From Torulaspora globosa (lineage: Eukaryota > Ascomycota > Saccharomycetes > Saccharomycetales > Saccharomycetaceae), in contig NC_050734.1 of the NCBI RefSeq assembly GCF_014133895.1, positions 850,502-914,501 of the forward strand: a stretch of 64,000 nt of DNA, in the 5' to 3' direction. The notes beneath the pieces are model-generated. The model did not search any database. It was not told where the DNA came from and saw only the letters and a program-made list of their open reading frames with translations. Position 1 is the first letter of the stretch. Every line of letters starts with the position of its first letter. Of the stretch, positions 42,416 to 43,609 are shown piece after piece. A program made the translations under genes and the position numbers.

Positions 42416-43609
42416 ATGTCATTCGTTAAGGATTTCGAGCCTGTTGCCTTGGGTGATACCACTCTATTCAAGCCAATCAAGATTGGAAACAACGAATTGA
42501 AGCACCGCGTTGTCATGCCACCTTTAACCAGAATGAGAGCTTACCACCCCGGTAATGTGCCGAACGACTGGGCCATCGAGTACTACGACCAGCGCTCGAA
42601 GAGGCCAGGTACTTTGATCATAACCGAGGCTACTTACCCATCTGCTCGCAGTGGAGGCTATGACAATGTTCCAGGTATCTGGTCCGAGGAACAGATTGAG
42701 AAGTGGAAGAAAATTATCGCCAAGATTCACGACAACAAATCGTTCGTGTGGGTGCAATTATGGTCTTTGGGTAGAAAAGCACTTCCGGGAGCTTTGGTCA
42801 GAGACGGTCTTCCTTTCGTGTCTGCTTCAGACGAACTTTACATGGATGAAGCTAGATGTGAGGAGGCAGTTAAGAGCAACAACCGACAACGTGGTTTGAC
42901 CAAGGACGAGATCAAGCAATATATTAACGATTACGTTAATGCTGCCAAGAACTCCATTGAGGCTGGTGCCGATGGTGTGGAAATACAGTGCGCCGGCGGT
43001 AACCTACTAAATCAATTTTTGGACCCTATCTCCAATAAGAGAACAGACGAATACGGTGGATCGATTGAAAACAGAGCTCGATTCACATTGGAAGTGGTTG
43101 ATGCAGTCACGGAGGCCATCGGTTGCAATAAGCTCGGTATCAGATTTATGCCATATGGTACTTTCAGTGCTATGTCCGGTGGTCAAGAACCATTGATCAT
43201 CGCTCACTATGCCTACGTATTGGGCGAATTGGAGAAGAGGGCTAGAGCTGGTAAGCGCCTAGCCTTTGTGCATCTCGTCGAACCTCGTGTGACGAATCCA
43301 TTTGATACCGAAGGCCAAGGAGAATACAATGAAGGTACTAATGACTTCGCTTACTCAATCTGGAAAGGTTCTATTATTAGGGCGGGTGGTCTAGCTTCGC
43401 ATCCGGAAGAAGTGAGGAAAATGGTAGCTGATGGGAGAACATTGATCGGATACGGTAGGTTTTTTATCGCAAACCCTGATATGGTTGACCGTATCGAAAA
43501 AGGCCTGCCATTAAACAAGTACATCAGAGAGACTTTTTACGCAAAGACCAAGGAAGGTTACACAGACTATCCAACTTATGACGAGGCACTTAAACTGGGT
43601 TACAAATAA
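42416..43609 (+). CDS. Old yellow enzyme homologue with replaced active-site residues
   Basis: FMN-dependent NADPH dehydrogenase family; 397 aa (S. cerevisiae Oye2/3 about 400). The barrel and flavin site are well kept: PPLTRMRA, WVQLWSLGRKA, FVHLVEPRVTNPF, TLIGYGRFFIANPD. The substrate site is not. In Oye1 this is EIHSANGY with H191 and N194 (ligand hydrogen bonds) and Y196 (proton donor). Here it is EIQCAGGN, that is Q191, G194 and N196 at exactly the same numbers. N251 is also Ser. The enzyme probably keeps FMN and may have a different substrate or act only as an oxidase. Confidence 0.93.
   Translation: MSFVKDFEPVALGDTTLFKPIKIGNNELKHRVVMPPLTRMRAYHPGNVPNDWAIEYYDQRSKRPGTLIITEATYPSARSGGYDNVPGIWSEEQIEKWKKIIAKIHDNKSFVWVQLWSLGRKALPGALVRDGLPFVSASDELYMDEARCEEAVKSNNRQRGLTKDEIKQYINDYVNAAKNSIEAGADGVEIQCAGGNLLNQFLDPISNKRTDEYGGSIENRARFTLEVVDAVTEAIGCNKLGIRFMPYGTFSAMSGGQEPLIIAHYAYVLGELEKRARAGKRLAFVHLVEPRVTNPFDTEGQGEYNEGTNDFAYSIWKGSIIRAGGLASHPEEVRKMVADGRTLIGYGRFFIANPDMVDRIEKGLPLNKYIRETFYAKTKEGYTDYPTYDEALKLGYK

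Follow-up and report, generated by a model that had tools for sequence, protein, structure and literature searches.

The substrate site of OYE1 has been described as His191, Asn194, Tyr196, Phe250, Phe296, and Tyr375, and 11 residues have been given for its FMN binding (P35, T37, G72, Q114, R243, G324, N325, F326, G345, G347, and R348) in the same report (PMC4002455). Tyr196 is the proton donor, and the replacement Y196F is reported to slow the canonical reaction by about six orders of magnitude (PMC13107220). The single OYE2 variants H192A and Y197F (numbered with the initiator Met) are reported to still reduce N-phenyl-2-methylmaleimide, and reduction by Tyr-less variants was not strongly affected according to the authors (PMC5574032). 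Natural Tyr-less OYEs have also been described, where EasA isomerises and SubF cyclises (PMC13107220, PMC4303823). What OYE does physiologically is still termed a mystery (PMC4002455).

The window refers to the whole stretch of 64,000 nucleotides of Torulaspora globosa DNA that was analysed. It is located at the right end of contig C8 (the window end is the contig end) in a genome of 9.28 Mb on 8 contigs. An OYE paralogue in the window has His191, Asn194, and Tyr196 all replaced. No paper on this gene was found by title and start of abstract among open-licence PMC papers. Judged from its sequence, there is about an even chance that the gene encodes a live, stress-regulated OYE paralogue with a rebuilt substrate pocket.

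The OYE paralogue and its altered motif

The features of the gene are listed below with their coordinates in the window.

42416..43609, plus strand: OYE paralogue, intact single-exon ORF of 397 aa (identified by ORF, homology, and Pfam).
42986..43003, plus strand: codons 191-196, QCAGGN instead of HSANGY (H191Q, S192C, N194G, and Y196N), by codon reading and alignment.
43148..43150, plus strand: codon 245 (ATG), S245M, two residues past the FMN-contact residue R243.
43166..43168, plus strand: codon 251, Ser (N251S) by alignment, where Gly is usual among relatives.
43205..43207, plus strand: codon 264 (CAC), Q264H, by alignment.
43388..43390, plus strand: codon 325, N325G at an FMN-contact position, Gly in Ascochyta OYE1-3 too.

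The window OYE was matched end to end over its full length by Oye2 (662.5 bits), Oye1 (644.6 bits), and Oye3 (626.5 bits) using phmmer. The Pfam family PF00724 (Oxidored_FMN) was matched with 376.4 bits against a cut-off of 27 over profile positions 2-342 of 342, and this full-length profile match places the protein in the family. Codons 191-196 read CAG TGC GCC GGC GGT AAC. In the alignment to Oye1 (mature numbering), the Gln, Gly, and Asn of the window OYE stand opposite H191, N194, and Y196. The residue numbers of both proteins coincide because a deletion of one residue near residue 50 offsets the initiator Met. The replacement of HSANGY by QCAGGN at identical residue numbers, which had been claimed in an earlier sequence-only reading of this DNA, was found to be exact by codon reading and by alignment to Oye1 and Oye2. 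That reading had also stated that the fold is kept while all three key residues are replaced, and the full-length homology supports it.

Canonical class I ene-reductases have a carbonyl clamp of H191 and N194 or H194, where the window OYE has Q191 and G194, and Y196 as the proton donor, where the window OYE has N196. H191 and N194 also have a role in nicotinamide binding. The remaining substrate-site residues (F250, F296, and Y375) are all three retained. The flavin-binding blocks had been read as intact, which holds for 8 of the 11 FMN residues of OYE1 and fails at G72A, N325G, and F326L. Each of these three changes is found in other family members. Leu is the majority residue at position 326 in the yeast consensus, while G72A and N325G are reported to occur in Ascochyta ArOYE1-3 too (PMC4002455). 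With 8 of 11 contacts identical and precedented substitutions at the others, the FMN site is that of an OYE family member. Ser251 is present as had been read, but it is not a lost catalytic residue: 100 of 116 relatives outside the clade of the window OYE have Gly at this position and 13 have Asn. N251S was rejected as a catalytic change since Gly is usual there.

M245 is common to the window OYE, its decayed twin on contig C6 (P0007), a relative from a different source (P0001), and another paralogue of the same genome (P0004), and occurs in 0 of 117 other aligned proteins. H264 is common to the same four, and His is present at this position in 2 of the 117. Our guess from the sequence is that M245 and H264 line the pocket of the window OYE.

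Relatives and paralogues

Three protein searches, with the best 120 matches listed for each, gave 168 different proteins, and 167 of them have all three motif columns filled. The survey of these 167 excludes the window OYE itself, accepts His at position 194, and covers the best matches, not the entire family. Among these listed relatives, 145 keep positions 191, 194, and 196, 11 lose one, 9 lose two (P0004 is one of them), and 2 lose all three. The two are P0001 and the C6 twin P0007 only. P0001 reads QCAGGN, is 87% identical to the window OYE, and is located on a contig of 5.3 kb. The sequence-only reading would have been contradicted by QCAGGN in characterised active ene-reductases; none was found outside this small group in the 167 relatives, a screen that stands apart from the 138 matched PDB sequences.

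H191, N194, and Y196 are about 95-97% conserved in the 117 relatives outside the clade. There are 121 columns that are at least 95% conserved in these 117 proteins, and the window OYE differs in 4 of them (159, 191, 196, and 245), with 194 just below the mark. By these alignments the motif change is more than chance: the positions are near-invariant and the change is common to the window OYE, its twin, and P0001. On a quick tree, 13 changes are required to account for the loss of one or more positions, and 9 of them are forced by well-supported branches, which points to recurrent loss of these positions. The tree was constructed using FastTree from 168 rows, where P0123 (270 aa) was dropped and the window OYE was added, and gave warnings on a few long branches. 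The survey thus describes position loss as a recurrent route among the surveyed relatives and triple loss as specific to this small group. Relatives from K. africana (HNAGGY), M. servazzii (MAANGF), and N. glabratus (HSSTGF) are hit at the same positions as the window OYE. None of the 20 relatives with one or two positions lost (P0004 included) loses all three, unlike the window OYE.

Separate relatives (P0112, P0119, and P0150-P0152) read HSAFGF, with Asn194 and Tyr196 both replaced by Phe, and form another natural altered-site series. Position 82 is Ile in the two HSAFGF relatives looked at.

The search for a second canonical OYE in the genome, which the same reading had proposed, gave three intact HSANGY copies. 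These make five intact copies together with the window gene and P0004, and the four others are 80-84% identical to the window protein.

C3:20.7 kb, same genome: P0004 (HG536_0C00120), OYE paralogue with QCAGGY.

P0004 is like the window OYE in Q191, C192, G194, M245, and H264, and unlike it in that Tyr196, Gly251, and Asn325 are kept. The codons TGC192, GGC194, ATG245, and CAC264 are identical in both genes, while Q191 is CAG in the window gene and CAA in P0004. GGC194 and ATG245 are each at least two base changes away from the canonical codons. Ten residues (I54, P133, Q191, C192, G194, M245, H264, M356, I360, and E372) are common to the window OYE, P0001, and P0004 and are present in less than 10% of the 117 others. 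That the window gene and P0004 acquired QCAGG independently was considered and is unlikely because these codons are shared and GGC and ATG lie so far from the canonical ones.

The clade of the window OYE and P0004 has support of 98/94 on 44 rows with the motif columns included. With columns 191, 192, 194, 196, 245, 251, 264, and 325 masked, it is found in none (0%) of 200 bootstrap trees, which were built on 19 rows. The two analyses thus differ in their rows as well as in the masking. The pair of the window OYE and P0001 has support of 100/100 in the masked and unmasked trees. The segment trees are too weak to decide (support of 0 for the group in 161-290, and two changes needed in 1-120 and in 291-397). 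The clade, masked, and segment trees were built without the broken twin P0007. P0004 is a mosaic with codons 1-80 near-identical to the canonical C1 copy. Synonymous differences per site between P0004 and the C1 copy are 0.00-0.08 in codons 1-80 and 0.60 in codons 121-160. On these figures the mosaic is a product of gene conversion, by which the path of motif origin is blurred. We infer a single origin of QCAGG that was followed by conversion.

A copy on contig C7 (C7:895.0-896.0 kb; L011 4997-5987) is a broken OYE with several stops. It was rejected as a member of the QCAGG group since it reads HSANGY.

Alternatively, the window OYE may be a non-catalytic protein that keeps the fold and FMN and serves the canonical OYEs as a dimer partner or regulator. 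It has lost all three catalytic positions, the four other intact copies are close in sequence and have the same control sites, and Oye2 of S. cerevisiae is reported to dimerise with itself or with Oye3 (PMC12016514). However, a pure scaffold would not need the FMN residues, which are largely retained, and the replacements are specific and shared, not scattered, and are accompanied by S245M and Q264H. We consider a role as such a partner rather unlikely.

Selection, promoter, and the decayed twin

The features outside the coding region and the duplicated stretch are listed below.

42032..42038, plus strand: TTACTAA, Yap1-type YRE-O site at -384, where each of the five intact copies has a matching site between -335 and -384.
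42222..42228, plus strand: TTAGTAA, Yap1-type YRE-O site at -194, where each of the five intact copies has a matching site between -165 and -194.
42435..44598, plus strand: stretch duplicated on contig C6 (95% identical), where the C6 copy starts at codon 7 of the OYE.
44270..44680, plus strand: stretch searched as a repeat, with 22 genome matches including itself, many over about 44501-44641.

On contig C6, the OYE and the flank downstream of it are present as a decayed near-copy that is 95% identical over 2.17 kb (C6:857.9-860.1 kb; L009 4922-7075). This twin is without a homologous promoter or ATG and without the FMN residue Gln114, and its frame is interrupted by two small lesions and an early TAG. 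The end of the duplicated block falls within the repeat, which we take to be LTR-like from its appearance. The near-copy looks as if it was moved together with the repeat.

The changes in each lineage were polarised with the four other intact copies after codons 1-7 and the lesions of the twin had been masked. Since its separation from the twin, the window lineage has taken on 3 nonsynonymous and 9 synonymous changes, where one of the 9 is the third base of a codon that is changed in the twin as well. The twin lineage has 11 nonsynonymous and 7 synonymous codons, and 3 further codons could not be placed in either lineage. The ratio in the window lineage is below the neutral nonsynonymous share of 0.71-0.77 (P 0.0002-0.0013), also when the three unplaced codons are counted for the window lineage, for which two ways were tried (P 0.00005-0.003). 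Neutrality was not rejected for the twin (P 0.10-0.25). Both lineages do not differ significantly in this ratio (Fisher P = 0.07), where the counts are small. In pairwise comparisons, the window gene gave a dN/dS of 0.11-0.15 with the four other intact copies and of 0.21 with the twin. In a three-way count, 46 residues are found only in the window gene and 10 only in the canonical sister (either sister, with the C4 copy as the third). The other three-way counts are 39 against 17 in P0004 and 46 against 27 in the C4 copy. Protein change in the window lineage is fast by these counts. Neither a broken frame nor neutral evolution, by which a pseudogene is recognised, was found for the window gene.

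The preferred Yap1 site is reported as TTA(C/G)TAA, and OYE2 and OYE3 are reported as Yap1 targets in S. cerevisiae (PMC3111461, PMC12016514). The promoter of the window gene is only about 70% alike to those of the other copies over long aligned pieces, yet both YRE-O sites are retained. The average density of such sites in the window is 0.11 per 800 bases, and none was found in the 819 bases that precede the C6 twin. With the codon set that we take to be preferred, the preferred-codon share is 0.593 in the window gene, 0.567-0.615 in the other intact copies, and 0.371-0.567 in eleven other window ORFs. This codon preference is weak evidence for a live gene because the decayed twin keeps a share of 0.575. 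From its frame and these patterns, the window gene is real and probably functional.

A paralogue that is losing its function under relaxed selection after duplication would be expected to end like the C6 and C7 copies. The genome already holds these two broken OYE copies, the window gene is located near a contig end and has many lineage-specific residue changes, and its ratio since the split is not significantly different from that of the twin. Nevertheless, the frame is open, only 4 of the 121 most conserved columns differ, the ratio of 3 to 9 is lower than expected under neutrality, the promoter sites are retained, and QCAGGN has been retained in P0001 at 87% identity. Ongoing decay is an unlikely account of the gene.

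Possible function and comparison with known systems

The reading that we prefer is a live OYE paralogue with a rebuilt substrate pocket. At the sequence level, the gene retains its frame, most of the FMN contacts, and both control sites upstream, and the residues for carbonyl and nicotinamide binding (H191 and N194) and for proton donation (Y196) are replaced, accompanied by S245M and Q264H. The carbonyl clamp would have been lost first and the proton donor later, since the QCAGGY paralogue has the clamp changes but keeps Tyr196. The protein would fold and bind FMN, take hydride poorly from NADPH, and hardly reduce ordinary enones. It may transfer hydride to strongly activated acceptors for which no clamp is needed and water can supply the proton (quinones, nitro compounds, maleimide-like electrophiles, or O2). 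Alternatively, the enolate may be redirected as in the Tyr-less fungal OYEs. The window OYE would work alongside the canonical copies, not replace them. Its enone reduction is probably weak, and by analogy hydride transfer to activated acceptors, or a redirected chemistry like that of EasA or SubF, is likelier than enone reduction. This proposal builds on the loss of Tyr with changed chemistry in EasA and SubF and on the maleimide reduction by the OYE2 variants. To our knowledge, no triple variant of any OYE has been assayed. The sequence-only reading had expected classical ene-reductase chemistry to be lost, which is likely for simple enones, given the reported slowing of about 10^6 by Y196F, and too strong for activated substrates.

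A further-reaching view, which we hold only tentatively, is that a small Torulaspora OYE lineage may have had its clamp and donor replaced in two selected steps, with a new OYE chemistry under oxidative-stress control. Hydride might, for instance, be transferred without a clamp, or an endogenous substrate might undergo a redox-neutral rearrangement.

The window OYE could still be an ordinary ene-reductase if Gln191 serves for His191 as a hydrogen-bond donor and water serves for Tyr196. Replacements of one or two residues recur among the relatives, and H192A and Y197F singly leave OYE2 able to reduce a maleimide as reported (PMC5574032). However, three changes are present simultaneously here, the second clamp residue is now Gly, and Y196F alone is reported to make the canonical reaction six orders of magnitude slower (PMC13107220). 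An ordinary ene-reductase is quite improbable. A sequencing or assembly artefact can be dismissed and was rejected as the source of QCAGGN, since the motif is present in two further sequences (the same codons at the separate C6 locus and the same residues in P0001 from another source), and T. globosa CBS764 and CBS2947 are reported to have been sequenced with Illumina and PacBio (PMC7282813), where the assembly is presumed to be one of them.

The contig-end arm around the window OYE (33951-61960) is rich in redox and detoxification genes by Pfam, with ZIP transporter, haem peroxidase, GNAT, DJ-1/PfpI, Cu/Zn SOD domain, Zn2Cys6 regulator, and GST families.

A natural paralogue without all three textbook residues, canonical copies, and a one-step intermediate in one cell form a ready-made series to address what an OYE can do without these residues and why such genes are kept. 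Recurrent residue loss may also supply enzymes for non-classical flavin chemistry.

The window OYE has full-length homology and mostly common FMN residues with the class I yeast OYEs (Oye1, Oye2, and Oye3; PDB 1oya, 7bn7, and 5v4p), and differs from them by the replacement of H191, N194, and Y196 and by S245M, Q264H, and N325G. Its Yap1-type sites are common to the canonical T. globosa copies. The psi-OYEs of Aspergillus are reported to sit in biosynthetic gene clusters. Among the nine other ORFs of at least 150 aa from 33951 onward in the window, seven have Pfam families (transport, redox, acetyltransferase, and regulator), two are without a family, and no biosynthetic core enzyme was found. 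The isomerase form of EasA (Clavicipitaceae) and the SubF-type psi-OYEs (Aspergillus) are described as natural fungal OYEs where Tyr196 is absent, as in the window OYE. Compared at position 196, these psi-OYEs are reported to have Phe whereas the window OYE has Asn.
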